The notes beneath the pieces are model-generated. The model had not been told where the DNA came from, ran no database searches, and saw only the letters and a list, made by a program, of their open reading frames with translations. From contig MCFG01000055.1 in the NCBI GenBank assembly GCA_002104895.1, forward strand, positions 164,372-228,371: a stretch of 64,000 nucleotides of DNA. Reading direction: 5' to 3'. Below are positions 530 to 37,512 of this stretch, piece by piece. The translations under genes and the position numbers were made by a program. The stretch is from Anaeromyces robustus (Eukaryota; Neocallimastigomycota; Neocallimastigomycetes; Neocallimastigales; Neocallimastigaceae). Position 1 is the first letter of the stretch. Every line of letters starts with the position of its first letter.

Positions 530-1858
530 ATGAATGCTTCAACTTTGGATTCTTCTCTGACTTCTTCAATAATGAATAATGCTACTATGCTAAATAATTC
601 TACTATAATAAATGATTCCTATATAATAACTAATCCATTATATTTAGAAGTTGGAAATTCTTTATATAGATTCAATGTTAATAGTAGTACATGTTATGGT
701 AAAGATTTTGATGATATATTTGAAGGTTTTACTGGACAATTTCGTGATTCGAATTGCTATACCTATATTATACAATTTATTATAGTATTATTAATGTATG
801 TCAATGTTGGTAGAGGTAAATATTGGTTACTTTTATTTATTGCTTCCTTAACCGGAGTATGTGGTGCTTTTATTGAACATTCTACCATAGCCGTAATTTG
901 TCAAAATAAATATAAAAACACCACTTTTAGAACTCTTCCTACTTTATTACTTAATGAATTATTTTGGATACCAAGTGAATATTCTATACCATTATTAAAT
1001 TTAATTAAAATGCAAGCTTTTTCCAAAGAAAAATTAGCAAGATTTATGAGATTTTCTATTTTATTATTAGGTATTCCATTTATATGTTTTAGATTTTTAA
1101 TTGGATATAAACGTATGACAAGTGGTTATTTATTAGATACCGATATTCGTGCTTATCATGGTGGAGCTTTTGGTATTATGGCTATTGCTGATATTCTTTG
1201 TACTTTTAGTATCCTTTATTTAGTTAAAAAAAGTAGTCTTGATGCTAAAAATAATAATATTATGAATCATGCTAAACATTCCAGTTATACCATTTTAATT
1301 GTTGTAGATGTTGTTAGTCTTTTCCTTTCTATCTTAGAAATTATAACTAATATTGGACCTTATAAAGATGATATTTCTAATGCCTATGTTATACCTTTCC
1401 ATTGTGTTAAAAATTCATTTGCTTTAATTTTAGCGGCAGATGCTCTTATCTTTAAATATGGAGTTAGTGTTGAAAAAAGTAGTAGTGGTAATAATTCCTA
1501 TAGTAATAATAATAATAATAATAATAATATGAATATGAATATGAATATGAATATGAATAAATCTAATGGAAGTGGAAGTATTATGATGGGTAAAAATAAA
1601 AGTAAAAGTGAAGGTAGTAGTAATAGTCAAAAGAAAAGTTATAATAATTATAGACTTATTAATAATTATTCACCATCCCCTAATGATAATCTACCATCAT
1701 TAAATTCTAATTCTATGGGTAGATCCAAATATAATAATAATAATAATAGTAATCATGTTGCCAATATTTCACCTTATAATTATCAAACTTATGAACCAGA
1801 TAATATGTATTCAGGAAAAAATATAAATAATAATTATTATTCAAAACATAATTATTAA
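530..1858 (+). CDS. Seven-helix membrane protein, tandem family member 1 (442 aa, function unknown)
   Basis: I do not recognise a named family. There is no cleavable signal peptide. The N-terminus (1-45) is Asn/Ser-rich with several N-glycosylation sequons (N2, N17, N23, N28, N51). A conserved LYRFN...STCYG block (45-56) and a DS-N-C-Y block (73-77) precede the first helix. Predicted helices lie at about 77-94, 99-124, 137-159, 174-192, 211-232, 252-272 and 286-310. The first intracellular-type loop has the invariant VGRGKYW. The last helix ends in DALIFKY. The tail (311-442) is Asn/Met/Ser low complexity but keeps the ISPYNYQTYEPD motif (PYNY at 415-418). The gene is intronless. This start is chosen because it is the first ATG after a pyrimidine-rich and TATATA leader, and it gives an N-terminus like that of member 4. 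Family relatives at 10783, 22544 and 36082 support a real gene. A GPCR-like or transporter role is possible but unproven. Confidence 0.9.
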   Translation: MNASTLDSSLTSSIMNNATMLNNSTIINDSYIITNPLYLEVGNSLYRFNVNSSTCYGKDFDDIFEGFTGQFRDSNCYTYIIQFIIVLLMYVNVGRGKYWLLLFIASLTGVCGAFIEHSTIAVICQNKYKNTTFRTLPTLLLNELFWIPSEYSIPLLNLIKMQAFSKEKLARFMRFSILLLGIPFICFRFLIGYKRMTSGYLLDTDIRAYHGGAFGIMAIADILCTFSILYLVKKSSLDAKNNNIMNHAKHSSYTILIVVDVVSLFLSILEIITNIGPYKDDISNAYVIPFHCVKNSFALILAADALIFKYGVSVEKSSSGNNSYSNNNNNNNNMNMNMNMNMNKSNGSGSIMMGKNKSKSEGSSNSQKKSYNNYRLINNYSPSPNDNLPSLNSNSMGRSKYNNNNNSNHVANISPYNYQTYEPDNMYSGKNINNNYYSKHNY

Positions 1859-4668
1859 TTTATAAATTAAAATAAAAAACAAAAAAAAAAAAAAAATACA
1901 AAAAAAAATACAAAAAAAAAAAAAAGTCAATAAATAATATAGAAATACCTAATAAGTAATAAAATAATAACTTAATATCCCACTCAAAAAAATAATTATA
2001 ATAATTATAATTATTTAAAAAGAACTAAAAAAAAAAAAAAAAAAGAAACAATTTTTACAAAATTAACAAAATTTAATACATATTATATTTATTTAAATAA
2101 GATTTAAATAATAATAATAGTAGTAATAATCATAATCATAATAATAAAATATAAATAAACCCTATATTCAATAAATATATAGATTTATTTATATTTTATT
2201 TTATTTAATTTTTTTTTATTCCTATTTAGTTTTTTTTTTTTTTTAAAAAAAAAATTTACTAAACAAATAGAATAAAAATCAATATATTAATATATAGAAT
2301 AAAATTTTATAATAATTAATAATATATAGTTTTTTTTTTTTTTTTATATTTTTTTTATATATATAAAATATATATTTTATACCAACATTTCATAATAATA
2401 ATAATAATATAATATAAATAAAAGTATTAATTATAAAAAAAAAAAAAAAATAAGAAACAAATTTTATTTATATAAAGAAAAAGTGTTATCTTTAATTTAA
2501 TTTATTTTTTAAAAAAAAAAGAATATGTGTGTTTTCTCTTAATTAAAAAAAGAAAAAAAAAAGTTTTTTTATTTTTTTTTTTGTTAACATAAAAAGAAAA
2601 AAAGAAATTTTAAATGTATATTTTTTTTTATTCTAATAATTTTCTCCTTTTTTATTATTATTATTATAATTTTTTTTTTTTAAAAAAAAAAAACATAAAC
2701 ATAAACATAAATATAAACATAACCATAAATATAACCATAAATATAAATATAGTAAAAAAAAAAAAGGGAATTCCTAAATATGTTATTTTTTTAATCATTA
2801 TTTTAAATTATTAAAAATGGATAAAAAAAGAAAAAAGAAATAAAAAAAGAAAAAAAAATTTTTTTTCTTTTTATTTAATTTATTTTAAAATCAAAATAAA
2901 AAATTAAAGATTAATTGTAATAATAAAAAAAGGAAAATAATAATAAAAAAGGTAAATAATAAAGAATAAATATAATTAATAAAAAATTATTATATATAAA
3001 AAAATATTTTTTCTATTTATGAAAATGCTAATGTTACTAAAAAAAAAAACATATATTTCAAATTCTTTTTTTTTTTTTTTTTGTTATTTTTTTTTTGTAT
3101 TTTTGTATTTTATGATAAAATTTTATGATATTGATTTTACATTTACTCCTTTTTTTTTGTTTTTAATAATCTTTAATAATTCTTTTTTCTATTTAATAAA
3201 AAAAAAAGTTACAATAACAAAAATTAAGGAATAATCAACAAATTTAAAGATATGTTTTTTTTATCATATAATCTATTTTTCTCCTTTTTTTTTCTTTTTT
3301 TTATATTTTATTTTCTTTTTATTTTCTTTTTTTCTTTATATATATTCTTTTTCTCTTAAATATTTTTTTTGTAATTATTTTGTTAATTATTTTGTGTTAT
3401 TTTAATAATAAATAGGTAAAAATATTTAATATAATTTTATATTAATCTTCAACAATCATCAAATTTATATTGATTATATAATATTATATCATATAATAAA
3501 TAAAGTCAAAAAAAAAAAAAAAAAAAAAAAAAATCTAATCAAAAAACAAAAAAACAAAAAATATTATATATTATATATTTATATTTATATATTTATATTT
3601 ATATATTTATATATATACAGGAGTTATATATATAACAGAAAATGTTTAAAAAAAAATACAGATATTAATATGATGATATTAATAGTATACATGATATTAT
3701 GATTACCAATATTCATATTTTATATGATATTTTTTTTATTAATATTATGATTACTATTTTTTATTAAAATTTTTGTTACTTTTATTAATATATAAAATTA
3801 TTATTTTTATCATTAACCTATATAAAAGAGTTTTATTTATGTTAATAATTAATAATTATACTTTGAAAAGTATGAAAAAAATACTTATCAAAGTATTTTG
3901 CAAATATATTTATATATTTATAGATAATAATAAATAATAATAAATAGTAATAATAAAGATGAAATAATAAAAAATAATAATAATAATATAATATATAATA
4001 ATAATAATATATAATCAATATATATAAAAAAACTTGAATATTTAATAATATATTATCGATAATCATAATTATATATAATGAATTAATTATTCAATATATG
4101 ATATATAATTTATTATATATTATTATATATTATATAATATATTTTAAACATATTTAATTTTCAATTAACGAAAATAATGATATAAAATAGTATAAAAAAA
4201 TTAAGGTTTAAAAAATAATATATATTATAATTTAATAAAAAATATATATTTTATATTTATTATATATAGTGAATAAATTGTTTAATATAAAGTTAAAAAT
4301 AGCGTTTATTCCGAATTGGAAAAATTTGTTTACTTTATTAGAGAATAATTTAATAATTAAATTTTTATTAAAAATTATTTTTTAATATTAAATTTTTATT
4401 AAAATGATTAAATTAAAATTAATAAAAAAAAAATTTTTTTTTTGTTCCTCAAATTTTATTGATTCATTTATTGATTAACAATTTTTTTCTAGCCTCAATT
4501 TAATATTTTATTGTTTGTATCCAAAAAATTAATATTATTTAATAAAGTCAAATGATAAACTTGAACTTTTTTTTTTTTTTTAAAACTAATTAAAAAATTA
4601 TTATTTATTAATTAATTAATTAATATATTAATTTATTTATTTCTTATGAATATAATATAATATTTTTA

Positions 4669-4699
<31 letters not shown>

Positions 4700-7600
4700 T
4701 TTTTTCTGTGAAATACTTTTAAAATGTTTTATAATTAATAATTAATAGTTAACATTTAATAATAATTAATAGTTAATATTTAATAATAATTAATAACAAT
4801 AATTATTTTAATGTTCAATAAATATTATTATTATTATTTTTAACAATATTCTTTTAACACAAAATATAAAATCGATAGATTAAAATTGTGTTCAGTGATT
4901 TATTATTAATATAATAAGAAAAACAAGGTTGCTTTTTTTTTTTTTTTACTATTTTACTATTTTACTTTTTGTAATTCACGTTTTTGTAGCAAAACAAATA
5001 AATAAAATAAATAATTAATATTCTATACTATTGTTAGTACTTTTGATGTTATTATGGAATAAAATAAAATAGAATAAAAGAACAAAAAAGAAATGAGAGA
5101 TATAACAGATAGAATTTATTATTATATTATATTATATTATCATTATCTCCATCATCATCATAACTTAATATATATTTATATATATTTTATTTTATAATAA
5201 AAAAAAAAATAAAACTAATATTACCAGTGTAATATAATGAATAATTTGAAATACAATTTTATTACGTAATAATAAATGAATTTAATCTTAAAAAATAAAT
5301 AAATCTATTATAATAAATAAATAAATAAACATATAAACTAAAGGATTAAATAGGAAGTCAAAAAAAAATAATTAATATGCAATTTATAATTAAAAATAAT
5401 AAATAGCAGTGCTTATATATGCAATGATTAATAATAATAATAATAATAATAATGATATAAAACGAATATAAAAACTTAATTTAATAATATAATTTAATAA
5501 ATTGTAAATGTATAAATTAATGTATTCTTCATAGATTTTATATTATTTTATGTTAAATGTAAATTATTATATTTTATTGTTCAATCATTATTAAGTATTT
5601 ATATAAACAAATAAACTCTATTGTAAGTAAATAGTATAAAAGCTAGGAAATAGTTTAGTTATATTAACCCTCATCTAGGAATATCTATAGTTAGATAGTT
5701 GAGATGTAGAGAGATATTCTTACGATCATTAATTAGAATATGTAAACAAAAGAATAATAAATAAAGTGTACTCAAGTTCCTTAATAAATAAACTGTGTTA
5801 TATCAATAAGAATTAAAAATTAATAATTCATTTTTATAATAAGAATTAAAAATTAATAATTCATTTTTATAATAATAATTAATAACTAATTAATTTTTAT
5901 AATAATAATTAATAACTAATTATTATTATTAAATTATTTATTCATTAAATTATTTATTTATTATTTAATCTTATTATTTTATTAATTTATTTATTTATTA
6001 ATATATATTAATTTATTTATTGTTTTTTTTAATAATTATTTATTTATTAATATTTATTAATTCATTTATTATTTATTTTTAATTATGTTTTCTTTAATTA
6101 TTTTTGTGTTCAATCATCCATACCATAATAGTAAAAGTTAATAATAGTTAATATTTATTATTAATAAAAAAAAAAACAAGTACAAGGTAAAAAAAAATTT
6201 TTTTTTTTTCGTATCTTTTTTTTTATTTTTATTTTATTTCAATATGATTGATTATATAATATATTATATATAATAATATAATATATACTAACCTAATATA
6301 TAATATATTAACATATTATATATAATAAATATTATTAACCAATAAGAATAAACTATTTTTTATTAATTTATTATTTGATTATTCTTATATTATGGCTAAT
6401 TTCATTCTAGAAAATATTTTTTTTTTAACGTTTAATTCCCGGTTATTTCAATTAAAAGAAATAAATATATATTTATAAAATAAATAAAATAAACATTTAC
6501 TTAATTTTATATACTCAAAAAAATAATTTTTATTGATTAATTAATATAATTATAAAATTTTATTTTATATTTTATTTATTAATTTCAAGTTTTTTTTATT
6601 TAAATTTTAATTTTAATTTTTATTTTATTGTATGTTCGTTTTTAGCATGATAGTTTAAATATTTAGTTTTTTTTGTTTTCATTCTTTTCATTCTTTTTTT
6701 TTTTTATTCTAAAACTTGGTAAAACGTTGCACTATTTCAATAAATTATAATATATTAAATTAGTTGATTATCTTTCATCTTATCTCTAATCATTTATTTA
6801 TATACTTTATATAAAATTATATATTATTTAAAAAACTATAATTTTTAAAGTTTACGTTTTAAAAAAAAATTTTTTTTTTCTATCTATCTATCATTCATTC
6901 ATTTAATTATAAATTTAATTATTAAAATATAAAATATCCTGAATAATCTTGGTTTATTTATTTATTTATTTATTATTTATTTATTTAATTCTAAAACAAT
7001 TAATAAAAAAAATTAATTAAAACGTTTATTGTTCTATTTTTAAATTATTTTTAATTACTTAGTATTATTATTTATTTTCATATTATTTTTTATAAATATT
7101 TTAATTATTTTGTGTTTTTATTAATTAATTATTTATTTTATTAATTATTTATTTAATTATTTTATAATAAATAATAAAATAAAAATTAATTTTTATTAAT
7201 ATTTATTATTAATTCTTATTATTATTTTATATTAGTTTATTATTAAAGACTTAGTATTTTTTTTATTTTATTTTATTATTTAACATCTTATTATTATTAT
7301 AATTATAATTAGGATTATTATAATTAGGATTATGATTATCCTTTATAAAAGTGTTTAATTAAAAAAAATATAACAAAAGTTTATTATATTCCTTTTCTTC
7401 TTATTTTAAATATTATATATTTCATTCTAGAATTAAGTTTTTATAGAATAAATTTTAATTTAAAATGACATCCTATTTTTTAATATATTTTTATATTTAT
7501 AACTTCTACAACTTATTTAAAATATAGGGTTTAATTTTGGTGGAATAATAATAAAAATATATATTATATATTATATATATATTTTTTTCTTAACTTTTAA

Positions 7601-7823
7601 AATTCATTCCACTTTACTTTTTTTATATTTCTATTTAACTTGTTATACAAATTTTTATATTTTATTATAACTAATAATAATGAATAATGAAATAATAGTA
7701 ATAGTTCTATTCATCAATAAAGTGTTTTCTTCATTTCATTTCTATTCATTTCATTTTATTTTTTTTTATTTTTTTTATTTTTCTATATTACTATATATCT
7801 ATGGTTATTTAATAATAATAATA

Positions 7824-7858
<35 letters not shown>

Positions 7859-10091
7859 TTATTAAAAGAAATCCACTTTATTTCCTATTTTATAAAATTA
7901 TGCATAAATTTTTAAAATATTATTAATTATAGTTTTTCTTTTTTAATTTAATTATTTATACATTGTGGGTAAAATACATCAAGTTCCTTTTTTATTCTTC
8001 TAATAAATAAACTTTTTAAAACAAAATATTTTAATATAAATATCATTTTTTAAAAGAATAAGTTCTAAAACCTTATTTCTAACATATAAAATAAAAAAAA
8101 TGGATCTTCATTTAATTTATTTCATTATTCTTTGGGTTTTTTTTAACTTTAATTTTATCTTTAGAATTTTATTTATTTATTTATTTATTTATTTATTTTT
8201 TCATCATTCTCACTTTTTTTTATACTTTAATTTATTAAATATATTTCTAAATACTTTTCAACTGTTCCTTCTATAGTTAAAGGATAAGGTAAAAATATAC
8301 TGAAAAAAAAGATATTTATTTTAATTATTAGATTAACATGCTTGATATTCAATGGAAAAAATCAATAATAATAATAAAAATTAATAATAATTAATAATAA
8401 TAATAATTAATATTAATAATAATAATAATAATAAATCATTAATTATTCTCTAATAATAAATAATAAAAATTAAATAAATGAATAAATTAAATAAATTATT
8501 GACTATAGCCCAAGATAATTAATTTTTTTATTATAATATATATTAATAAATTAATTAATAAATAATAATATAATATACAAAATAATTAATATAATATAAT
8601 TAATATAATATAAAAGATATACAAAAAACAATAAAATAAATTATTAGAAAATAAAGTTATTTATATATAGTATAAATGAATAAACGAAAAAAAAAGATAT
8701 GAAAATGTTTTATAATAATAATACTAAATAATATAATTTATAACAATGATAAAAAAAAAATTAGGCTTAATTATATTAATAAAAAAAAAAAAAAAGAAAA
8801 CATTTATTTATTTTAGATTATTAAATCATTTATTCATGTATTAATCATTTAATGATTAAATATTTGTAAGAGATTTTTATTTTTTTTAATTTTTATTTTT
8901 TTACAAAAAAAGTAATTACGACGTTTGATATGCCTTTTTTAGTAAGAAAAAAATTTTTTTTTTAAAAAAAAAGCTGTTTTTTTTTTTTTTTTCATTATTA
9001 CTTTTATATAATTTTTTCCATTTATATAATAGAAAATACTAAAAAAAAAAAACATAACAAAACAATAAAAAAAAAATAAACAAAAATTAAATAAAAATTT
9101 AATAAAATAAAAAAAAAAACAGAATAAAAAAAGAAAAATTAAAGAAAAAAAAAAACAATTTAATAAATAAATATATTAATTAAAATATCTAATATATTTA
9201 TGTATATTGTAATATATAATAAATATAAGTTGGCATATATATTCAAAAAATAAATTAAAATTCATATATTAAAATAAATAAAGTTTCATCATCAAAAATA
9301 ATAATAAATAAAGTTTGGAAATGTAATTCCTCAAAAAAAAATGTTAAAAAAAAGTAATAAAAAGTAATAAAAATATTGAAATATTAAAAAATATTAAAAA
9401 ATATTAATTAATAAAATTATGTGAAACTATAGTGATCAAATAATTAAAAGTTTTAAATAATAATTATTAAGTAAGTAGTAGAAGAAAGAAAAATGATGAA
9501 AAAAAAAAAACAATTTTTTATGAAAAACGAATAGGATTAAAACAATTTAATAGATAAAATATATATACATTATATATACAAATAAAATAAAATAAAATAA
9601 AATATTTTAAAAGGAAATTGTTAATTATTATATTACATTTATTACAAAATAAATTAAATTATTATTTACATTAACTTTAAAATATAATTATTATTTAAAC
9701 GTAAAGAATATTAAAAAATTAAATATTTCAAATAAAAATAATAAAATAAAAAAAAATATAAAAAAAATATTATTATAAGAATAATAATAATAATAAAATT
9801 ATTATAAACAATTATTAAATAATGATAACAATATATATAAAAAAAAGACATATTAAAAAAAAATTATATTGAATAATGTTTATATATTAAAAAAAAAAAA
9901 AACTATAAAAAGAAATAAATTTCTTTAAAAATAAATATTTTATTTTCTTACTTTTTTTTTTTTTTCTTTCAAAAAAATAAAAAAATAAAAAAAAAAATAA
10001 AATAAAATTATTAAATATTATTATTATTATAATAAAAAAAAGAAAATAGTTAATAAAAAGAAAATTTTTAATTCTAATAATAATAAAAATA
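1859..10091. other. Gene-free A/T-rich spacer between 7-helix genes 1 and 2
   Basis: I find no credible gene on either strand. The content is homopolymer A/T runs, TTTA/AATA microsatellites (for example about 8168-8199) and A/T tandem duplications near 4733-4800, 5806-5935 and 7305-7335. One less A/T-biased patch, about 5630-5810, contains a TATAAAAG box, two CTAGGA(A) words and AATAAA signals and could be a decayed solo LTR, but no ends can be defined. Short open frames here are made of Phe/Ile/Tyr/Lys codons from simple repeats. Confidence 0.5.
5806..5935. repeat. A/T-rich tandem duplications
   Basis: A unit of about 33 bp (ending in ATTCATTTTTATAAT) is present twice in direct succession. 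It is followed by a second related unit (AATAATTAATAACTAATTA) also present twice. Replication slippage is the simple explanation. Confidence 0.6.
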
Positions 10092-10130
10092 AATCTATAT
10101 TTTACTTTTATTAAAATAAAATTAGATTTA
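10092..10130. promoter_or_regulatory. Second conserved upstream motif, 7-helix gene 2
   Basis: AATCTATATTTT, then CTTTTATTAAAA, then TTAGATT. The same order of words occurs at 21834-21873 and 35436-35472, always 130-170 bp upstream of the palindrome. The ends AATCTA and TAGATT are inverted repeats of each other. It is interpreted as a duplicated promoter or enhancer element. Confidence 0.5.
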
Positions 10131-10263
10131 TAATTATTATTATTATTTTATGAAGTTGTATATATGATTAAATATTTATAACAGGAAGAAAAAAAAAAAA
10201 AAGGAAAAAAGAAAATAGTATTATTTAAATTATTTTAGGAAATATATTTATTGGAAAAATTTT

Positions 10264-10291
10264 TTATAATATTTTTATTAAAATATTATAG
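10264..10291. promoter_or_regulatory. Conserved upstream palindrome of 7-helix gene 2
   Basis: TTATAATATTTT, TATT spacer, AAAATATTATAG. It matches the palindrome of gene 1 with a single change at the outer edge. It is centred about 505 bp upstream of the ATG at 10783. Confidence 0.55.
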
Positions 10292-10782
10292 AAAAAAAAA
10301 ATTAAATAATAATAAAATAGTGAATAAGACAATAAAATAAAATAAAATACTATAAACACAACAAGAATTTTTTTTTTATTATTCAATAGATAATAGAAAT
10401 AAAAATAAAAATAAAGAAATATATAGAGATATAAAATAAAAATAAAAATAAAAATAAAGAAATATATATAGAGATATAAAATAAATATCAAATATAATTT
10501 TAAATTAAAAAATATAATATTAAAAATAAATATAAAGAATAAAAAAAATTAATAATATATATATTTTAATTATAAAGCAATATATTTGTAAATATATATT
10601 AATATAATATATTAAATAATTGATAAACAATTATAACAAAACAAAAAAAAAACAACAAATATAGAAAAAAATAAATTAAATAAAAAAAAATATTATTTAT
10701 TCAATTAAGACTTTATCTCCAATTCATCCCCTTTATATATTTAACAAGAAGAAGAGAAATAAAATAAAATAAAAATAAAAAA

Positions 10783-12033
10783 ATGAATTATACACATACG
10801 AATGGTTTAGATGAATCTATTTTTAATAAAGAAACCACTTCTTTATATAGATTCAACGTAAATAGTAGTACATGCTATGGTAGTGATTTTGATGATATCT
10901 ATACAGGTTTTAGTGCTCAATTTGCTGAATCAGATTGTTATACCTTTGTTATACAATTTATTATTGTTACATTGATGTATACTAATGTGGGTAGAGGTAA
11001 ATATTGGTTACTTTTATTCCTTGCTTCTTTAGCAGGTGTATGTGGTGCTTTTATTGAAAATGGTACTTTAGCCGTCATTTGTCAAGTAAAATATAAAAAT
11101 CCAAATGGTTCTTTTAAATTTATTCCTTCCTTTTTAGTAAATGAAATATTTTGGATTTCTAATGAATTTTCTGTACCAATATTAAATTTAATTAAAATGC
11201 AAGCTTTTTCCAAAGAAAGATTAGCTCAAATGATGAAATATCCTATTATGATATTAATTATTCCATATATTATTTTTAGATTCATGATTGGTTATTATCG
11301 TATGACTTATGGTTATTTATTAGATACTAAGATTCGTGCTTTACATGCTGGAGCTTTTACGGTGATGGCCATCGCCGATATTCTTTGTACTATTAGTATT
11401 TTACATTTTGTTAGAAAAAGTAAACATGATAGAACTGTTTTAAATAGAAATAATGATATTAAAAGTCATGTTAAACGTTCCAGTTATACTACTTTAATTA
11501 TTATTGATATTGCTTGTGTTTTCCTTTGTACCTTAGAATTAGTTACGGATATTGGACCATTAAAAGATGTTATTTCAAGTAGTTATGTAGTACCTTTCCG
11601 TTGTATAAAGGATTCTTTTGCTTTAATTTTAGCTACAGATGCTCTTATATTTAAATATGAAGTTAATATAGAATCTAGTAGTGGATCTAATGGTTATAGT
11701 GGTAGTTATGGTTATCAAAAGAGTAGTGGAAATAATTTCAAATATTCTACCTCTAATAATGATACCAAATATTCTACCTCTAAAAATGGTAATTCTTATA
11801 GTAAAAATAAATATGGTAATGATCAAATGGCAAGTATTACTCCATATAATTATCCAACCTTTGATATGGAAGCTTATTCTAAATCTCCAGGAAAGAATAA
11901 AAGTATTATTAAAAATTATTCCAATATTAAAACTTCTAATTTAATGGATGATAAATATGGTACTATTGGTGGTGGTAATAAATCTTATGACATAGGTTAT
12001 AATCCAAATAAAAACTTTGGATTTTTAAATTAA
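10783..12033 (+). CDS. Seven-helix membrane protein, tandem family member 2 (416 aa, function unknown)
   Basis: Intronless paralogue of the gene at 530. It has a short N-terminus (1-19) without signal peptide, then SLYRFNVNSSTCYG (20-33) and ESDCYTF (49-55). Predicted helices lie at about 52-69, 74-99, 114-136, 153-171, 187-211, 234-254 and 267-291. Invariant family blocks are NVGRGKYWLLLF (68-79), NLIKMQAFSKE (135-145), GYLLDT..RA (177-186), MAIADILCT (195-203), a VKRSSY block (230-235), and TDALIFKY (285-292). The tail (293-416) is Ser/Gly/Asn/Tyr-rich and ends with ASITPYNYPTFDMEAYSK (PYNY 354-357), an IIKNYSNIKT block and a terminal NFGFLN shared with member 4. The two Cys residues before helix 1 (31, 52) could form an extracellular disulfide. 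Being shortest, this member best shows the minimal conserved architecture. Receptor, channel or transporter function cannot be decided from sequence. Confidence 0.92.
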   Translation: MNYTHTNGLDESIFNKETTSLYRFNVNSSTCYGSDFDDIYTGFSAQFAESDCYTFVIQFIIVTLMYTNVGRGKYWLLLFLASLAGVCGAFIENGTLAVICQVKYKNPNGSFKFIPSFLVNEIFWISNEFSVPILNLIKMQAFSKERLAQMMKYPIMILIIPYIIFRFMIGYYRMTYGYLLDTKIRALHAGAFTVMAIADILCTISILHFVRKSKHDRTVLNRNNDIKSHVKRSSYTTLIIIDIACVFLCTLELVTDIGPLKDVISSSYVVPFRCIKDSFALILATDALIFKYEVNIESSSGSNGYSGSYGYQKSSGNNFKYSTSNNDTKYSTSKNGNSYSKNKYGNDQMASITPYNYPTFDMEAYSKSPGKNKSIIKNYSNIKTSNLMDDKYGTIGGGNKSYDIGYNPNKNFGFLN

Positions 12034-21719: not shown

Positions 21720-21755
<36 letters not shown>

Positions 21756-21873: not shown

Positions 21874-21985
21874 TTTTTTTTTCTTTCTGTATAATATTTT
21901 TATAAAATTGTATATTTTTATTATTTATTTATAAAAATAAAAAATACTATTTAATATTTAATAAGAATAAATAAATAGAGATAAT

Positions 21986-22010
21986 TTATAATATTTTTAT
22001 TAAAATATTG
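21986..22010. promoter_or_regulatory. Conserved upstream palindrome of 7-helix gene 3
   Basis: TTATAATATTTT, TATT, AAAATATTG. The inner 8-bp arms are intact and the right outer arm has diverged. It is centred about 544 bp upstream of the ATG at 22544. Confidence 0.5.
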
Positions 22011-22543: not shown

Positions 22544-23512
22544 ATGGATAAAAATATTGAAAATATTTTTTCAGATGATAAAAGTTCCCTTTATCGTTTT
22601 AACGAAAGTAGTAGTACCTGTTATAATAAAGATATTAATAATATGATTACAGGGTTTTCAGGACAATTTCAAGATTCCGATTGTTATATTTTCATTATAC
22701 AATTTATAGTAGTTGCTTTAATGTATATAAATGTTGGAAGAGGTAAATATTGGTTAATATTATTTATTTCCTCTTTAGCTGGATTATGTGGATCGGTTAT
22801 TGAAAATGGTACTATTGCTGTTATTTGTCAAAATAAATATAAAAATAGTCAAGGAGCTTTTCATACTATTCCTTCCTTTTTAATTAATGAAATATTTTGG
22901 TCCACGAATCAATATTCTATACCTATATTAAATTTAATAAAAATGCAAGCTTTTTCCAAAGAAAGATTATCCAAATGGATGAAATATATTATTACTTTAT
23001 TATTTATTCCATTTATTAGTTTTAGATTTTTAATTGGGTATAATCGTATGATGAAAGGTTATTTATTAGATACTTATCTTCGTGCTTTACATGGTGGGGC
23101 TTTTGGAATTATGGCCATTGCGGATATTTTATGTACTATTAGTATTCTTTATTTTTTAAGAAAACAACCCAGTGATCATATGATTGTACAAGGAAGTAGT
23201 ATAAAATCTCATGCTAAACGTTCCAGTTATAATACTTTAATTATTGTGGATATTGTATGTATTTTACTTTGTATTTTAGAATTAATTACCGATATTGGTC
23301 CATTTAAAGATGCCTTATCTGGTCAATTAGTAGTCCCTTTCCGTTGTTTAAAAAATTCATTTGCTTTAATTTTAGCTTCAGATGCTCTTATTTTTAAATA
23401 TGAAGTTAATATAGATTCTTATAATAATAGTAATTCTGGTGGTAATGGTGGTACTGGTAGTAATTATTATGGTAATAATGATAGTTATGCCTATGGTCTT
23501 CAAAGAAGTATC

Positions 23513-23546
<34 letters not shown>

Positions 23547-24046
23547 CTATGACTATGACTAATAATAGTAATAGTAGTAATAATTTTAATAGTAATAATT
23601 TTAATTTTACAAATTATAATGAAATGATGCCAACGATGAATATGAGTATGAATATGAATATGAGTATGAGTTCTTCTTTAAGTAGAAATAATTATAATAA
23701 TGAACAACAATTAGCTAGTATTGCACCCTATAATTATCCATCCTTTGATATGGAATTATTTAATAATAAAAATAATAATAATGATAGTAGTAATAATAAA
23801 GGTAGTTTGGATAATGATAAAAAGAAATTAGTAAAAAAGAATAGTAATAGTAGTAATAAATCAAAATATTCCTCCTATAATTCAGAAATGTTTTCTAAAT
23901 CTTCCAATAAAACTACTAAAAGTAAGAATAAGAATAAAAATAAGAATAAAAATATTAATATTAGACATTATTCCAATAGTAAAAAATCATTTAGTATGTT
24001 AGAAAAAGATTATGATATTGATTTTAATCCAACTCATAATTATTAA
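22544..24046 (+). CDS. Seven-helix membrane protein, tandem family member 3 (500 aa, function unknown)
   Basis: Intronless paralogue of the genes at 530, 10783 and 36082. The N-terminus is short (SSLYRFN at 14-20, STCYN at 24-28, DSDCYIF at 44-50). Predicted helices lie at about 47-64, 69-95, 109-131, 148-166, 184-206, 228-249 and 262-286. Family-invariant blocks are present: NVGRGKYWLILF, NLIKMQAFSKERL, RALHGGAFGIMAIADILCT, AKRSSY, ELITDIGP, NSFALILASDALIFKYEV. It has the longest tail (287-500), with Asn, Thr/Met and Met/Ser runs followed by ASIAPYNYPSFDMELF (PYNY 395-398), a Lys/Asn-rich stretch and a terminal DYDIDFNPTHNY. The helical core is highly conserved while the tail varies in length by homopolymer codon expansion, which suggests constraint on the membrane domain plus short tail motifs. 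The start is preceded by a CAAAAAA-rich leader like the other members. Confidence 0.92.
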
Positions 24047-24927
24047 ATAAAAAAAAAAAAAAAGAAAGAAATATTTAAATAATTTTAAAAAAAATTAATA
24101 AATAAAATTTATTAATTCAAAAGAAGAAAGAATGAAAGAAAGAAAGAAAAAAGAATAACCTTTCAAAAAAAATAACCTTTCAAAAAAAAATTCTTTAAAA
24201 AAAAAATTCAAAAAAAAAAAAAAAAAAATAACCTTTAAAAAAAAATAAAAAAATCGAAAGAAAAAAGAAAAAAAAAAAACTTTAAAAAAAAAAAACCCTT
24301 GTAGAAACAGAAAAAATAATAATAATAATAATAATAAATAAAAATAAATAAAAATAAAATATATCAAAAATAAATAAATAAATGAATAAATAAACAAATA
24401 AAAACTTTTTAATATATTCTAAAGAAAATAATAATAATAATAATTTATATATTATATAAATAATATAAATAATATATAAATTATTATAAATTAAAGAGGA
24501 AGAAGGAAAGAAAAAAAACTATTATTTATTTTTATTTTTTTTGTTTAAATATATTATTGTTATATAAAGTTGTTTTTTTTTTATTAAGTATTTAATTTTT
24601 TATTTTTTTTTTTGAACTCTTTACATATAAATATATATATATTATTTAAATAAAAAAATTGAAATTTGGTTTCAAAAAAAATTATTTTTTCTATATTTCT
24701 TTTTCTATCATTGCATTTATATATATAATAATAATATATAATAATAATATAATACAATATAATGTAATATAATAGATAAAACTTATTATTAATGATAATT
24801 ACAAGGGGGGTGTTATTATTCAGTATTTTTCTTTCTTTTTTTTTTAACTATTAACTTTATTAATACCATTCATAAAACTATAATAATAATTCATTTTATA
24901 AAAATTATTTTTTATTTATTATTTATT

Positions 24928-25008
24928 AAAAAAAAATGAGTACAATAAATTCCATAAATATATACCAGTTTAATTTAAAATAAATTTTTATTGTACTCAT
25001 TTTTTTTT
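24928..25008. repeat. 22-bp perfect inverted repeat (hairpin or MITE-like)
   Basis: The left arm 24928-24949 (A9 followed by TGAGTACAATAAA) is the exact reverse complement of 24987-25008. A 37-nt loop lies between. The core TGAGTACAATAAA is not simple sequence, so the pairing is unlikely to be chance. No flanking target duplication is evident. Confidence 0.65.
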
Positions 25009-28000: not shown

Positions 28001-29013
28001 TTAATAGTTAAAATAATTAAATAACCGAATATCTATAATAAGTAAGTAAATAAATAAATAAGATTATAACAAAATTAATCAATAAATATATAATTAATCA
28101 ATAAATATAATTAATATATATAAATAAATTATAATTAATTATAAAATAATTTGTAATCAATGATTAATAATTAAAAATTAATCATTAATCATAATATCAT
28201 AATTATTAAATAATGTAATATTACATTATCAGAAAAAAAATTTTTTTATTTATTATTTATTTAATCTTAATATATTATTTATTGTTTATTGTTAATATAT
28301 TATTTATTTATTTATTTATTTATTTTTACTTTTGTTTTATGATAAATAATTTTATAATTTAAAAAAAAAAAAAAAACTTATACAAAATTTATAAAAAAAA
28401 AAAATTTTTTTTTTTTATGAAAAAGGAAAAAAATAAAACTTTAAAATTTAAAATGGAAAAAAGAAAAAAAATTAGTAACAGAAATAAAAAAAAATTAATT
28501 AAAATAAAATTAAAAATTTGTTTTAAGTATCCAAATTAAGGTATAACAAACTATAAAAGGAAGGTGAAATAAAACAGAAAAATAATTATTTAAATTAAAT
28601 TTTTTATTAATAATTTGACATTATTAAAAAATTTAATAATTAAAGTATTAAATTTATTGTTTTTCATTTATTAAAAAAAAAATTTTTTTTTTCAATTAAA
28701 AAAAGAATAAAGACATGTATTACAAAAAAAAAAATAATATAAAAATAATATAAAAAATAATAATATAAAACAAAAAAAAAAAAAAAAACAAAAAACAAAA
28801 AAACAAAAAATAAAAACAAAAACAAAAATAAATTAAGAAAAAATAATTTTTTTTAAAAAAAAAATTTTTTTTTAAAAAAAAAGTTGTTTTTTTGTATCAT
28901 AAACAATTTACATTGTAATATAAACAATTTTTATAATTAAAAATTAATATTTAATAATTAATTTTTAATATTTAATAATTAATAATTAATAATTAATAAT
29001 GTAATATTTAAAA

Positions 29014-29072
29014 ATTAATATTTAATATTTAATATTTAATATTTAATATTTAATATTTAATATTTAATATTT
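29014..29072. repeat. Heptanucleotide tandem array (TAATATT)n
   Basis: About eight near-perfect copies of a 7-bp A/T unit in direct succession. It is a minisatellite with no coding content. Confidence 0.7.
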
Positions 29073-32000
29073 ATTTAATATAGTATTACTGTGTATAAAT
29101 AAATATATATAATTATATTATAAAATATAAATATATACTATAGATTATATGTAAATTACAAATATTAAATAAATAAATAAATAAACAAACAAAAAAAAAA
29201 AAAAGTATAATACATTTTACAGAATAAATACGCGATGAACCTATAAAAACACATATATATACACATATATGTATATATACATCTATATATACATCTATAC
29301 ATACATACATACATACACGTAATACACATTCACATAATACACATATACCTAATACACATATACCTAATACAAATTATACATAATACTCTATAGATAAGTT
29401 TACCATATATATTATAATGCATATACTTTTATATGTATATGCATATGTATATAATCTTTAATAGTCTTTTTAATACTCTATAAGTATACTATACAGTATA
29501 ATCAATATATAGTTAATATATAGTAAGATGATATACAATTTTATGTTTCTATTTATATTTCTATTTAAATTTCTATTTATTTTTTTATTCATAGTATATA
29601 TAAGAATTTATACTTATAAAAGATACTATATATATGCTATATTAAAGAATATATATATAGAATATATTTATAGAATGAAATATATTATATAAATGTTATA
29701 TTAGAGAATATATAGAGAATATATTTATAGAATAAAATATAATATATATATCTTGATATATAATATAAAAACAATTATAATATATAAAAAAGAGTTAGAT
29801 AATAAATATTATTATATTAGAAGTAATATTAATATTTATTAATTCTTTTGATCATAAAAAGATATAATTTTTTATGTTTAATAATTTTTATCTTAAGCTC
29901 AATAGAAAAAAAAATAGATAATTTTTATTATATAATTTTTATTTATTTATTTATTATTTATTATTTATTATTTACTATTTAGTATTTATTATTAATTATT
30001 TATTAATTATTTATTATTTATTATTTATATTTTTAGTTATTTATTATTTATTATTCATTATTTATTTATTTATTTAGTTATTATTTATTTATTTATTTAT
30101 ATATTTTTGTGTAAAACGTTACACCATTGTTTTAATTTTAATGAATTCTTTGTGATTGTTTTATTTTTATAAAAAAAAGATCAATAAAAAAAAAATATTT
30201 CACATAAAAATTTATTAGAAGAATTATTTTTATTTATTTTATTTTTCGATATCCATACTCATATACTCACAACCATAACCATAATTATTACCATACATTT
30301 TTATTTATTTAATATTTTTATATTCCATTATTATTTTCTATTTTCTTTTTTTTATATTATTTATTTTTTATTTTTTTATTTTTTTATTTTTTATTTTTTA
30401 TTTTTTTTTATTTTTTTTATTGTTTATTTATTTTTATTCTATTTTATTTTTATTGGTACTTGTGTTTTATAAGATTTAATAATTTCATTATTTCTTATTT
30501 GTTTAATTTTTTTATTAATACATAAAAAAAGAATTTCATTTTATTTTATTTTATTTTATATAAATATAATATAATATAATAATAATATAATATAATATAA
30601 TAATATAATATAATAATAATATAATAATATAAGTAATATAATATATAATTAATCAAGTAATACTAAATAAATAAATTTTTTTATAGAATAAAAAAAAAAA
30701 AAATGACATCATTATTTAATATTATTTAATCTAAAACAAGAAACAAAAAAAAAAAAAATTTTTTTTATTAAAATTTTATTTAATTTAATTTATATTAATT
30801 TTTAATAAATTTTTTATTTATTTTATGTTTTTTTTTTTTTTTTATGTTTTTGTTTCTTTTTTTGTTTTTTGTTTTTTTAATTATTATTTAAATTATTTAT
30901 TTTTAATATTAATAATTAAATTATTAAATAAATTATTAAATAATTAAAACAATATAAAAATAATTATTTAAAACCATTCTTAAAAAATATTTTAAGCCTT
31001 ATTTCACATATTTATTTTTTTTTATTATTTAATAATTATTTATTGTTAACAATTAAATACTTTTTTTTATATATATATTAGTTTTATTAAACTGCTTTTT
31101 TTTTTTGCTTATATCATTATTCTTGGTATTACAGATATTATAATTATTATTGGTATTGTTTTATTGTTATATTATTAATATTTATTAATTTATTTATTAT
31201 TTAATATTTTTTAGATTAGCTAATTTATGCTTTAATATTTAATTACTTTGCTATTAATAAAAATTAATAATTTTTTAAACAATAATAATTTAAAGATGAT
31301 TTATAATCTCTACTTTCCTTAAGTGTAATATTGCAGATATTCTCAAGAAAACGAAGATTAGTATCACTTTTTTTTTTTTCCGAAGTATTAAAATAATATT
31401 ATCAAATTGCTTTTTTTTTTTTTTTTTTAACTATTGAATAATCAATAATGAAATTCATAAACAATAAACAATAAATAATAATGAATAATAAATAATAATA
31501 AATAATTAATAATAATTAATATTTTTAATTGATTTTTAGGTTAAAACAATAAAAAACAATCACCTCAAAATTTAATCAATTTTTTAATTTTTTAATTTTT
31601 AATTTTTTTTTAACACAATATATTATGTTTATTGTATTTATTATATATATTATATTTATTACATTTATTATATTTATTATATTTATTTATTTATTGTATT
31701 TATTGTATTTATTGTATTGATTATATTTATTGTATTTATTTAAAATTATTACACAATTATGACATTATGAAATCATTTTATGAAATGTTTATTTATTTTA
31801 ATAGTTTTATTTCTATTTTTTTTTTGCTTTTAAACACAATTTTATGAAATTGGAAATTGTGTTTTTATTCAAATAATAGTTTATTTTCTTATTGAACTTC
31901 GAAGAAGTGTTCTTTATTTTTTTTTTATTGAATTAACAATATTATTATAATAATTAATTTATTTTTTTCCCTTAATTTTTTTAATAATAATCGAAATTTT

Positions 32001-33455
32001 TATATTGTTTTTTTTTTCTGTTTTTTTTTTTTTTTTATTTACTTACAAGAAATTTTTTTGAACCTTTTTTTTTTTTTAATATTCTGTTATTTCTTAATAA
32101 TTATTAAATATATAAACTTTATTTAATATAATTTCAATTATCATATAAATGTATAAATGTATGTAACATTTAACATACAACAACACAACACATTTTGTAT
32201 ATACCTTTGAATAAATGAATCATTTTTTTTTAAAAAAAAAAAAAAAAAAAACTAATTTTTTATATCAAATAAATAAATCAATAATTATAAAATAAATAAA
32301 TCAATAATTATAAATCAATAAATCAATAAATAATAATAAATAAATAATAAATTACTAATTCAATTATAATATATTAAAAATGTATTACTGATAATTTATT
32401 TAGTTAATTTTTGTGATTTCGTAATATTGTATATTTGTATCAGCTACAAACATTTGTAATATGAAAAAAAAAATTAAACAATTTAATAGTTAAATTTCCA
32501 TTTATGAAATAAACTTTTTTTAATAGAATATTTAATATAAATCTTAACCTAAAAAAAAACCTTATTCTATAATACAATTTGATTATAAAAAAAGTGCAGG
32601 ATAAAGATAAAATAATAATATAAAAAATAAAATTAAAAATAAAATTAAAATTAAAAATAAAATAGAAAATAGAAAATAAAAAATAGAAAATAAAATTGAT
32701 TAATAAATAAATAAATAAATAAATAAATAAAAATGATGGATAAATTAATTATGGATAATGGATAAAATTTATTAATAATTAATAATTTATAATACATACA
32801 TCATATAATGAATAATAAATGAATAAAAAATAAAATAATACATTATGAAAAAAACTATAAATATAACTAAATAATAATAAATAATAAACAATAACTAAAC
32901 AAATAATAGATTAAAGATAATAAATAATTAGTTATAGAAACTTAAGAAATTGTTTTAATTATTTCTAATATATATATATAATTAAAAAAAAATTAGTCAT
33001 TATAAATAATTTATTAGAAGTGACAAAATTAATAAACATATTAATTATAAATAACTAAATAAAGAAAAGGAAAGTTATAAAACAGAATTAAGGTTTAAAG
33101 TTGGGTAATTTTATATAGCAAAAAAAAATGAGTAATAAAAAAAAATTTAGTAAAAGGAATAAAAATAGAAATAATAATAAATTTGATTAATGAATATAAT
33201 AAATGTAATAAATGAATAAATATAATAAATAAATGAATATAATAAATGAATTATAATAATTAAAATAAATGAATATAATTAATATAATAATAAATATAAT
33301 AAATGAATAAATATAATAAATTTAATAAATGAATATAATAAATATAATAATAAATCAATTATTAAATATATAATCAATAAATTATAATTGATTAATAAAT
33401 AAATAATTAGACAAAATGGAAAAAAATGTATAAAAATGTATAAAAATGTATAAAA

Positions 33456-33456
33456 G

Positions 33457-33509
<53 letters not shown>
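33456..33509. repeat. AAAT tetranucleotide microsatellite
   Basis: Uninterrupted AAAT/TAAA units over about 54 bp inside the gene-free spacer. Confidence 0.8.
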
Positions 33510-33512
<3 letters not shown>

Positions 33513-35435
33513 AATTATTTTTTATTATATATTTTATAAAAATTTTAATAAAATTTAATTTAATTAAATTAAATTAAAAAAAAAATAAATTTTAAAATTT
33601 TAATATTTTAAAAATATTTTCAATTAACAATATTTAGAGAAGAATAATTTAATTTATTAAATTAATTAAGTACAAAAAACGAAAAAAAAAAACTAAAAAT
33701 AGTTTTTAAAACTAATTTTTTTTATTTCAATGTACTTTGAAAAAAAAAAAAAAAAAAAAAAAAAACTAATAAAAAAAAAGACAAAAACAAAAATGAAAAA
33801 AAAAACTTTTTTTTTTTAATCTAATTTTTCATTATTCTTTTTATTTTTATTAGTTCAATTTTTTATTATTTTTTAATTATTTTTTTATTATTTTTTTATT
33901 ATTTTTTTATTATTTTTTAATTATTTAATATTATAGAATTATTTAAATTATGTTACAAAATTTTAAAAATTAAGAAAAAAAAATTAAAACAAATTTTTTA
34001 TTTTTTATTGTATAAAATAGAAAAAAAATTAACAAATTTAGATCTACTCTATAGAGAACTAACAAAATAATTATAATAACTATAAAATGTTTTAATAGAC
34101 AAAATTTAATAGAAATGGTTTCTAAATTATAATTATAATTATTTATTTACTTATTATTTGTTTATTTATTTATTATTTATTATTTATTTATTTATTTATC
34201 TATAATACTATTCTATTTTCTATTTTTTGCATTTTTTATTTTCTATTTTCTTTTTCGTTTTTTTATTTTTTATTATTTATTTTAGAAAATCCTAATGAAT
34301 TAATTTTTTTAAAAAAAAAAAGAAATCATTCAGATTTAATATACTATAAAATATATTCTAATATATTAAATGTTAAATGAAATAAATAGAACTTTATTTA
34401 ATAAATAAAAGTTGACGTGAGTAATCGAAAAGTTAATTAAAGAATTAATTAATGAACTAATAATCATTCATCATCAAAAAGTTTAAAAAAAAAAAATAAA
34501 AAAAAAAAAATAAAAAAAAAAAAAAGAAAACAAAATAATTAAATAATAATTATATAAATAAATAAATAAATAATATATTAAAATTAAATAAATAAATATA
34601 TAATTAAATAAATAAATAGTATAAAAAGAATATAATGTAAATTGTATTGATAGATTAAAAAAAAAACTTTAAAAAGTAAAACAATGTAAAATAAAATAAA
34701 ATAAAAAAAAAATTAAAGATGGAATAGAAAAAAAAATAAAACAAAATAAAACAAAAAAAATTAAAAAAAAAAAAAATTAATAATTAATAAGTTAATAATA
34801 CATAAAATAATAAAATAATAATTAATAATACATAAAATAATAATAATAAGATAATAAATTATTAAATTATTAAATAATTCATAAGATAATAATTGATGAC
34901 TACATCCAATTAACTACTAAAAAAAGAAAAACAAAAATATTAAAACAAAAAAAAAAAAAAAAAAAAAAAAGATAATACATAAATACATAAAATATAAATA
35001 AATAAATACATAAATACTTATAATAATAAATATAATTTATAAAGTTTATAAATTTTATTTATTATTATTTATACTTATTTATTCTTTTTTGTTAATATTA
35101 TTTATTTAATTTTTATTTTATTAAATTTTATTTATTATTATTTATAATATTAAAATATTAGGAATAATATTTATTATTCTTAATTGATAGTCATTTTTAT
35201 TTTTCATTTATCTTCTTAATTAATTAATTAATTAGTAAAAAAAAATATATAAAAAGAGGACAAAAATCTTTAAAAAAAAAAAAAAAATTCTTTTTTTCTT
35301 CTTTTTTTTTTATTAATAAGAAGAGATAATCAAAAAAATAAAAAAATAGTAATAATAAAAAATAAAAAAAAAAAAATAAAAAAAAAAAAAAATAAAATAA
35401 AAAAAAAAAAATTCTGATTATAATAATACTAAATT

Positions 35436-35472
35436 AATCTATATTTTGGCTTTATTAAAACAAAATTAGATT
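35436..35472. promoter_or_regulatory. Second conserved upstream motif, 7-helix gene 4
   Basis: AATCTATATTTT, GGCTTTATTAAAACAAAA, TTAGATT. The order and spacing match the copies before genes 2 and 3, and it lies 131 bp upstream of the palindrome. Confidence 0.5.
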
Positions 35473-35566
35473 ATAATATTATTATATAGAATTGTATATA
35501 GTATTATTTATTAAAACGAAATACTATTTAACTTTTTTTTTTTTTTTTTTTAGATAAATTACTAAT

Positions 35567-35594
35567 TCATAATATTTTTATTAAAATATTATAA
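35567..35594. promoter_or_regulatory. Conserved upstream palindrome of 7-helix gene 4
   Basis: TCATAATATTTT, TATT, AAAATATTATAA. One base in the outer left arm differs from gene 1. It is centred about 501 bp upstream of the ATG at 36082. Confidence 0.55.
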
Positions 35595-36081
35595 ATAATA
35601 ATTAAATAGTTAAAAAAAAAAAAAAAGTATTATTATTTATATTAAATTTATAAGTTATTCTTATTATCTAAATTATATCTAAGATATTTAAAATAGTAAT
35701 AATAATAAAAGAGTTAAATAATTAAAAATAAATAAAAGAAATAATTATTTAATAGTTAATACTTTTTTTTTTATTATTAATTTAATTATTAACAATATTT
35801 TTGTATATATATTTAAGTATTATATTATATTAAATTAAATAATACTAATAATAATAATAATACTAATAATAATTTTTATTGTTAATACTTATTTAATTTA
35901 ATTTGATTTATAATAAAAATTAAAAAAAAAAAAAAAAAAAACAAATTGGTATTCATCCACAACTTCCTTTTATTTTTTTATTTTTTATTTTTAAATACAT
36001 GAAAAATTAATTAAAACTAAAACAAAAAAAAATAGAAAATTATAAAAAAAAAAATACAAAAAAAAAAAAAAGAAAAAAAAA

Positions 36082-37512
36082 ATGGATTATAAGAATGAAA
36101 CTCTTATTAATAATTATTTATTTAATTATGGTGAATCTAATTATTTATTAAATAATAATACCACAGAAATACCATTTTATGAAAATTATCATGAAAAAGA
36201 ATCATTATACAGATTTCACCCAAATAGTGCTACATGTTATGGAAAAGAATATACTAATGTTATAATGGGTGTTAGTGGACAATTTCATGATTCAGATTGT
36301 TATACCTTCATTATACAATTTATTATTGTTTCCTTAATGTATATCAATGTTGGTAGAGGAAAATATTGGTTACTTTTATTTCTTGCATCTTTAGCTGGTA
36401 TATTTGGTGCATTTGTTGAAAATACTACTCTTGGTTTTATTTGTCAAGTTAAAACTAGAAATACTTCCTATAATAACGTTTTTTCCTTTTTACTTAATGA
36501 AATATTTTGGATCACGAATGAATATTCTGTACCTTTATTAAATTTAATTAAAATGCAAGCTTTTTCAGAAGTAAAATTAACTAAATATATCACTTATATT
36601 ATCTTTTTATTAGCTTTACCATTTATGGTTTTCAGATTTTTAATTGGTTATAATCGTATGACAAGAGGTTACCTATTAGATTCAGATATTCGTGCTTATC
36701 ACTCTGGTGCTTTTGGAGTTATGGCTGCTGCTGATATACTTTGTACTATAACGATTCTTTATTTTTCAAGAAAAACCAATAATGATATTTTACAAGGTCA
36801 AGCTAGTAATATTAAACATCATGTTAAACGTTCCAGTTATACCATTTTAATTATTGTTGATATTGTCAGTTTTGTTCTTTGTGTTTTGGAACTTATTGCC
36901 GATACCGGACCACTTAAAGATAAAATATCTACTCAATTTGTAGTTCCTTTCCATTGTTTAAAAAACTCTTTTGCTTTAATTTTAGCAACCGATGCTGTTA
37001 TCTTTAAATATGGTGTTAATTCGGAATATGCTGGTTATGGTAGTAGTGGTCATGGTGCTCATGGTAATCGTAGTGGAAGTTATGGTTATCAATTAAATAG
37101 TGGTAGAAAATATTCTAATCATTCCTATGATATTACTTATACTAATGATACTACTTATCCATCTCTTCCAAATATGAGTAGTAGTTCTTTAAATGTTATG
37201 GGTAATGGTAATGGTAAAAGTTATAATACTAATAACAATAGTCCTACTAATGCTACTAATAATAATTATAATAATTATAATAATTATGGTAATAATGGTA
37301 AATCTGGTAATGAACCTATGGCAAATGTTACCCCTTATAATTATCCAACTTTTGATATGGATATGTATGCTAAATCTTCCAATAAAAATAAAACTATTAT
37401 TAAGAATTTTACAAATATTAAAACTCAAACTATTGTAGAAGACTTATCTAATCATCAAAAACGTGATATAGATTATCAACCTAATCAAACTTTTGGATTC
37501 TTGAATAAATAA
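36082..37512 (+). CDS. Seven-helix membrane protein, tandem family member 4 (476 aa, function unknown)
   Basis: Intronless paralogue closing the array. The longer N-terminus (1-40) is Asn/Tyr-rich with sequons (N5, N26) and has no signal peptide. It is followed by SLYRFHPNSATCYG (41-54) and DSDCYTF (70-76). Predicted helices lie at about 73-91, 95-121, 134-156, 169-190, 208-229, 251-271 and 285-310. It carries the invariant NVGRGKYWLLLF, NLIKMQAF, GYLLDSDIRAYH, VKRSSY, and TDAVIFKYGV. A Cys conserved in helix 2 of the other members (GVCGAF or GLCGSV) is Phe here (GIFGAF), so that Cys is not essential to the fold. The tail (311-476) has Gly/Ser/Tyr then Asn/Tyr repeats, then MANVTPYNYPTFDMDMYAKS (PYNY 418-421), an IIKNFTNIKT block and a terminal TFGFLNK, closest to member 2. 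Function is unknown. Confidence 0.92.
   Translation: MDYKNETLINNYLFNYGESNYLLNNNTTEIPFYENYHEKESLYRFHPNSATCYGKEYTNVIMGVSGQFHDSDCYTFIIQFIIVSLMYINVGRGKYWLLLFLASLAGIFGAFVENTTLGFICQVKTRNTSYNNVFSFLLNEIFWITNEYSVPLLNLIKMQAFSEVKLTKYITYIIFLLALPFMVFRFLIGYNRMTRGYLLDSDIRAYHSGAFGVMAAADILCTITILYFSRKTNNDILQGQASNIKHHVKRSSYTILIIVDIVSFVLCVLELIADTGPLKDKISTQFVVPFHCLKNSFALILATDAVIFKYGVNSEYAGYGSSGHGAHGNRSGSYGYQLNSGRKYSNHSYDITYTNDTTYPSLPNMSSSSLNVMGNGNGKSYNTNNNSPTNATNNNYNNYNNYGNNGKSGNEPMANVTPYNYPTFDMDMYAKSSNKNKTIIKNFTNIKTQTIVEDLSNHQKRDIDYQPNQTFGFLNK

Follow-up and report, generated by a model that had tools for sequence, protein, structure and literature searches.

A family of probable seven-helix membrane proteins, tentatively read as GPCR-type sensors, in the anaerobic gut fungus Anaeromyces robustus

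Class C G protein-coupled receptors (GPCRs) have been reported from three anaerobic gut fungi, with 51, 24, and 32 sequences (PMC5168858). A survey of 1357 fungal species, in which 17 fungal GPCR classes are now listed, proposes the Pfam family DUF6534 as a new GPCR class; this prediction is based on machine learning and modeling, and the consensus predictions given there all belong to Agaricomycotina (PMC12842992). Here we describe a gene family with four members in a stretch of 64,000 nucleotides of Anaeromyces robustus DNA (contig MCFG01000055.1, positions 164,372 to 228,371 of the forward strand), hereafter called the window. Predicted from sequence, the encoded proteins are probable seven-helix membrane proteins and may be GPCR-type sensors, a reading that we adopt tentatively. 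In build and likely mode they are of a familiar type, that of seven-helix receptors; the sequence family is absent from the libraries searched.

With rhodopsin-like and Dicty_CAR-like GPCRs, the family shares an outline consisting of a short N terminus, seven helices, and a long tail. Like the class C GPCRs of anaerobic gut fungi, it comprises many helical proteins in one genome, mostly single-frame and clustered, but it has no profile relation to them and lacks a large extracellular ligand-binding domain, since 14 to 72 residues lie ahead of the first transmembrane helix (TM1) in the 26 members aligned. DUF6534 proteins likewise have seven helices, an expansion in a fungal lineage, and no characterized ligand, and there is a faint profile resemblance over TM5-TM6; they differ in showing no significant sequence match and in belonging to another fungal lineage (Agaricomycotina). 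PAQR/adiponectin receptors are also helical bundles and appear as structural neighbors of a low-confidence model of the family. Their N terminus lies inside, whereas N-outside is predicted, not beyond doubt, for the family, and HlyIII is not among the printed Pfam matches.

The gene array and its relatives in the genome

All four genes of the window lie on the + strand, and each is one open reading frame (ORF) from start to stop (442, 416, 500, and 476 amino acids [aa]), as expected from the first-pass annotation, which had described four intronless same-strand paralogs. Their coordinates and the features discussed below are as follows, with residues numbered after P0002.

530 to 1858, + strand: paralog 1 (P0001, 442 aa), single exon
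746 to 1456, + strand: P0001 helical core, TM1 to the TM7 lysine (placed by hand from alignments; hydropathy)
10783 to 12033, + strand: paralog 2 (P0002, 416 aa), single exon; reference for residue numbering
10873 to 10875, + strand: P0002 codon for Cys31 in the N terminus, proposed disulfide partner of Cys100 (co-occurrence)
10927 to 11655, + strand: P0002 helical core, residues 49 to 291 (hydropathy, alignment, and topology counts)
11080 to 11082, + strand: P0002 codon for Cys100 at the outer end of TM2, proposed disulfide partner of Cys31 (co-occurrence)
11905 to 11919, + strand: P0002 tail motif IIKNY (motif count in tails)
12016 to 12027, + strand: P0002 C-terminal tail motif FGFL (motif count in tails)
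22544 to 24046, + strand: paralog 3 (P0003, 500 aa), single exon
22673 to 23398, + strand: P0003 helical core (placed by hand from alignments)
36082 to 37512, + strand: paralog 4 (P0004, 476 aa), single exon
36289 to 37008, + strand: P0004 helical core (placed by hand from alignments)
37396 to 37410, + strand: P0004 tail motif IIKNF (motif count in tails)
37492 to 37503, + strand: P0004 C-terminal tail motif FGFL (motif count in tails)

The window is the end of its contig (C501; the genome comprises 70.2 Mb in 769 contigs), and its GC content is 8 to 22% in 2-kb steps. The coding regions of the four paralogs are 70 to 79% similar as DNA, in register (families D12 to D14 and D16, among the 20 of 54 families shown), and similarity between their flanks is short (at best 213 bases at 77%). 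The core motifs NVGRGKYW, NLIKMQAF, SSY, and D-A-x-I-F-K-Y are invariant in all four proteins, and MAIADILCT and RSSY, also quoted previously, each deviate at one position in one paralog. Over 289 shared core codons, residue identity is 61 to 69%, with nonsynonymous (dN) and synonymous (dS) divergences of 0.23 to 0.27 and 0.43 to 0.60, respectively, by the NG86 method. The resulting dN/dS ratios of about 0.44 to 0.53 in the six window pairs, obtained without correction for a third-position GC content of 11 to 13%, support the coding nature of the four ORFs, and core identity and divergence together indicate purifying selection rather than fresh copies.

In a tree of 26 members, the four paralogs form one clade (support, 100/99), and thus the array fits local duplication. 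The tandem array and the paralogous expansion proposed in the first-pass annotation therefore stand, with the expansion reaching well beyond the window, while its epithet “recent” does not: 31 to 39% of the aligned core residues differ, and dS has the values given above. Synonymous codon identity in the window is nevertheless high (0.76 to 0.79 in the four of six pairs printed); over all family pairs, its mean drops with distance, from 0.75 for the closest class of pairs to 0.61 for the farthest, and the means of 0.61 to 0.68 for more distant pairs lie below the window pairs.

Searches for relatives, which covered the source genome itself, placed the main family at 30 loci on 19 contigs (queries, P0002 and two distant members). 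Besides the window, contigs C208 and C321 have three loci each, and C22, C27, C134, and C75 have two each (those on C22 are 47 kb apart); 13 pairs among the 30 loci are separated by 30 kb or less, versus about 0.4 expected from scatter. The core lies in one uninterrupted frame at 26 of the 30 loci. Alignment, tree, and topology counts refer to 26 of the 30, leaving out L026 (at a contig end), the C75 genes, both with split frames, and L027, where a run of N breaks the sequence. The P0004 locus has a second piece, L029. The counts for tails refer to 28 of them, as L026 has none and C75:71027 was left out. In the two C75 members (L091 and L092, at 70300 to 72100 and 83600 to 85400), an intron apparently splits the frame in the TM3 region; each has a collagen-like N terminus rich in Gly and Pro.

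A diverged subfamily, found with a query from C532, comprises nine loci (seven on C64, one on C532, and one on C82), and the same query reaches the main family at an expectation value (E) of 2.3e-6 and weaker. A profile of six of these nine members matches the 26-member profile with a probability of 98.2 over 194 columns, from TM1 up to where TM6 begins. All six keep the second TM3 glutamate and five the TM3 lysine, as judged by eye. At the two loci fetched with flanks, the frame breaks ahead of TM6-TM7, which suggests introns. The C64 loci form a cluster of at least seven genes (61174 to 124433, - strand); a further, weak piece at 92570 (E, 0.086) would be the eighth.

Predicted topology, conserved residues, and tails

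The hydropathy curve of the 26 members has seven peaks, the third exceeding the threshold at a single position; the threshold is passed at one more isolated position, a shoulder of helix 6. In 25 of the 26 members, the loops assigned to the inner side carry the higher net charge, and in 24 they have the higher Lys-plus-Arg (K+R) count. When the N terminus and first loop are counted, seven helices with the N terminus outside perform better than six helices with the N terminus inside in 19 members, worse in 4, and equally in 3. Among the predicted topologies, seven helices with the N terminus outside and the C terminus inside are favored, and six helices with the N terminus inside fit less well. 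The seven-helix, receptor-like topology initially proposed is thus the best supported by hydropathy peaks and loop charges, as a prediction.

Two cysteines had been described as conserved before helix 1. This holds for the four window paralogs, while family-wide only the first (position 31 of P0002; 23 of 26 members) is conserved, position 52 being occupied by Cys in 7. Cys31 and Cys100 occur together in 22 members and are both missing in 3, and a single member has the N-terminal Cys only.

Conservation is higher in intracellular loop 1 (ICL1) than in extracellular loop 1 (ECL1) (0.72 versus 0.36) and in ICL3 than in ECL3 (0.50 versus 0.41). The inner halves of the helices score 0.71 versus 0.65 for the outer halves (shuffle P of 0.044, with neighboring sites not independent in the shuffle). 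This pattern leans towards a common inner partner and varied outer contacts.

Several observations weigh against the receptor reading or its topology. L018 has more K+R outside, L007 has equal K+R counts, and L023 has equal net charge on the two sides. If the six loops alone are counted, 24 of 26 members agree with the six-helix, N-inside arrangement, in which TM3 does not cross, a fit close to that of seven helices, and the N-terminal Cys and Cys100 would fall on one side under either topology. Moreover, the 22 members with the Cys pair form one clade (100/99), so that the co-occurrence may reflect a single event. The N terminus had been called glycosylatable, and sequons are found there in only 13 of 26 members. 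The gap between inner and outer conservation is small, ICL2 equals ECL2, and TM4 and TM5 show the opposite trend. Finally, the structure prediction suggested for the core was made with AlphaFold2 from the four window proteins and gave a poor model (pLDDT, 46.5; pTM, 0.47) with TM3 in two pieces. Its structural neighbors, PAQR/adiponectin receptors among them, do not discriminate for a helical bundle, and the lack of any family from that list is not taken as evidence.

The conserved residues within the helices also bear on function. W75, E121, P132, N135, K138, R166, D242, and D286 are present in all 26 members, Q58, E92, W124, and D199 in 25, C202, K276, and K291 in 24, and E128 in 23. The ionizable ones among them, E92, E121, E128, K138, R166, D199, D242, K276, D286, and K291, are distributed over TM2 to TM7 and kept in 23 to 26 of 26 members, and they would also suit a transporter or channel, which again speaks against a receptor. 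The chief rival explanation, which we consider somewhat unlikely, is accordingly a secondary transporter or ion channel, in which these residues would form a proton- or ion-coupled path and the paralogs would differ in substrate. The six-helix, N-inside topology, common in transporters, is still compatible with the loop charges. The variable outer loops beside a conserved ICL1 and conserved inner ends, the long tails with ordered short motifs, and the lack of a significant transporter match in the searches made (see below) all count against this explanation without deciding the matter.

The tails, 29 to 61% Asn, Ser, and Thr, had been described as long and of low complexity. They are not featureless: [IV][IV]KN[YFSH] and FG[FY]L share the same set of 11 out of 28 tails, the former always preceding the latter, and FG[FY]L ends 1 to 10 residues from the C terminus in 9 of the 11 (18 and 32 residues in the other two). 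A third motif, P[YF]NY, is found in 10 of 28 tails. Composition shuffles yielded means of 0.10 and 0.02 of 28 tails for these two motifs and 0.23 for P[YF]NY, although the patterns were picked after inspection and the members are related, so that the shuffles overstate significance. Of the window proteins, P0002 and P0004 carry all three motifs, and P0001 and P0003 carry P[YF]NY only; the IIKNY/FGFL-type pair is absent from 17 of 28 tails.

Two further candidates were considered and dropped. The lysine of rhodopsins is located mid-membrane, and a retinal protein was dropped because the two TM7 lysines lie towards the ends of the helix, K291 at the inner one and K276 near the outer one. Insect-type seven-transmembrane channels have the N terminus inside, an orientation that is the less likely one here, judged by the charges.

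Library searches and described families

No Pfam match was better than an E of 0.0048 for the 26 members taken singly, four consensus sequences, and the diverged exons. Wherever cutoffs were printed (the four window proteins, the four consensus sequences with four members, and the diverged exons), no match reached them; the table for the 26 members prints none. The best weak matches among the 26 were Ac110_PIF (E, 0.0048; one member) and ICMT (E, 0.0098; two members), a C532 exon matched Pex24p (E, 0.006; 16.1 bits versus a cutoff of 26.8), and DUF6534, CSC1-like, SteA-like, PEN-2, Orbi_NS3, and DPM3, among others, also appeared weakly in the Pfam or PDB searches. Because different members match different families, these matches are read as chance, with DUF6534 kept as a lead. 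NCBIfam (four window proteins only) and PDB sequences (single proteins and the 26-member profile) gave nothing usable, in agreement with the first-pass annotation, which could name no family for the four paralogs. A scan of viral contigs found no relative (13 pattern matches, none confirmed). The titles and printed abstracts returned by a search of open PubMed Central full texts contained no description of the family; supplementary gene tables, outside that scope, may list members.

Transporter and channel families had no significant match among the printed Pfam matches, in NCBIfam (window proteins), or among PDB sequences, a negative that is silent on any unnamed transporter family. The weak matches of this type were TMD0_ABC, MerE, and Cation_ATPase_C at an E of 0.06 or worse (Pfam) and CSC1-like at 0.68 (PDB). 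A further alternative is an integral-membrane enzyme, e.g., one that hydrolyzes or transfers lipids at a charged active site within the membrane. We regard this as rather improbable: the sole ICMT match with a printed cutoff falls short of it (15 versus 24 bits), and the structural neighbors come from a poor model and do not discriminate for a helical bundle.

DUF6534 is the Pfam family matched by the most members (3 of 26; best E, 0.091). TM5-TM6 of P0003 align to positions 2 to 47 of its profile, and the family consensus begins at the same profile position, so that kinship with DUF6534 of Agaricomycotina (PMC12842992), as a distant fungal branch of that family, was weighed. It appears improbable. 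P0003 scores 13.4 bits versus a gathering cutoff of 28.2 for PF20152, the 26-member consensus is weaker than single members (8.1 bits; E, 7.9), and the three other consensus sequences have no match; a search of the whole genome with the family came back empty, although its control gave no signal either. By the Pfam cutoff, the family is not part of DUF6534.

The features of rhodopsin-like class A receptors (7tm_1), namely a match to the Pfam profile and the motifs DRY in TM3 and NPxxY in TM7, were not found. In the same genome, scoring of 150 out of 187 candidates put class C GPCR domains (7tm_3, PF00003) at 127 places, many of them clustered and in open frames of about 500 to 550 aa; on C31, a family member has one of them as a neighbor at 2 kb. 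Descent from class C GPCRs by loss of the large ligand-binding domain is nonetheless very improbable, as this explanation is strongly weakened by the profile comparisons. The family profile matched 20 class C rows of this genome with a probability of 1.1 and, with one program option different, class C subsets of 4 and 16 rows with probabilities of 11.7 and 0.2, whereas the subsets found each other at 98.5 (positive control). By eye, none of the 127 places overlaps a family locus.

Window context and possible role

An element resembling a long terminal repeat (LTR) retroelement without a recognizable gene lies at 42156 to 43861. Its repeats (42156 to 42607 and 43269 to 43861, ends set by eye) start with TG and end with CA; 386 repeat bases are 99.5% identical, the first copy is internally shorter, and the interior comprises 661 bases. 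It is bordered by A runs on both sides and is 67 bases from a tRNA-Arg gene (42014 to 42088). Of 406 candidates, 40 were scored, and each of these is a near-identical copy of the repeat; seven pairs elsewhere are 1,253 to 1,255 bases apart, as in the window. It looks like a very young element of the terminal-repeat retrotransposon in miniature (TRIM) type. An ORF at 53366 to 54994 (+ strand) encodes an esterase with SASA (PF03629), CBM_4_9, and two stretches of CBM_10, the dockerin of anaerobic gut fungi, in keeping with a neocallimastigomycete source; the predicted protein is probably a cellulosome-type plant-wall enzyme of these fungi. Leucine-rich-repeat (LRR) frames at 56631 to 60339 (- strand) apparently form one multiexon gene (two of three frames scanned pass LRR cutoffs), and a 129-aa open frame with a high content of Asn, Met, and Gln at 46956 to 47345 (- strand) has no Pfam match at an E of 0.1.

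If the family consists of GPCR-type sensors, the extracellular N terminus would be pinned by a Cys31-Cys100 disulfide, a ligand would be sensed from outside or inside the bundle, the conserved inner ends of TM3, TM6, and TM7 would relay the signal to a G protein, and the tail would recruit a regulator. The same genome has G-alpha-like genes (30 matching pieces, representing fewer genes) and RGS at 19 places, which is permissive of a receptor role and not proof of it; the many class C GPCR domains would lead one to expect these genes in any case, a further point against reading them as support. A more specific proposal, possible but doubtful, is that of an undescribed fungal GPCR class, expanded in this one gut fungus to about 39 loci, that would sense chemicals of plants or the rumen. 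Its members would couple through their conserved inner face, and the tail motifs IIKNY ... FGFL would act as a code by which a common partner is recruited.

Anaerobic gut fungi locate and colonize plant fiber as swimming zoospores, and a role of the family in zoospores, suggested earlier, is plausible ecology. Sensors proposed for gut fungi are class C receptors and sugar-binding proteins (PMC5168858). A catalog that takes Pfam domains or known GPCRs as its basis would probably overlook the present family. If its members are receptors, a second family without detectable class C relation would widen the list of candidate sensors and provide concrete genes to express, localize, and knock out.
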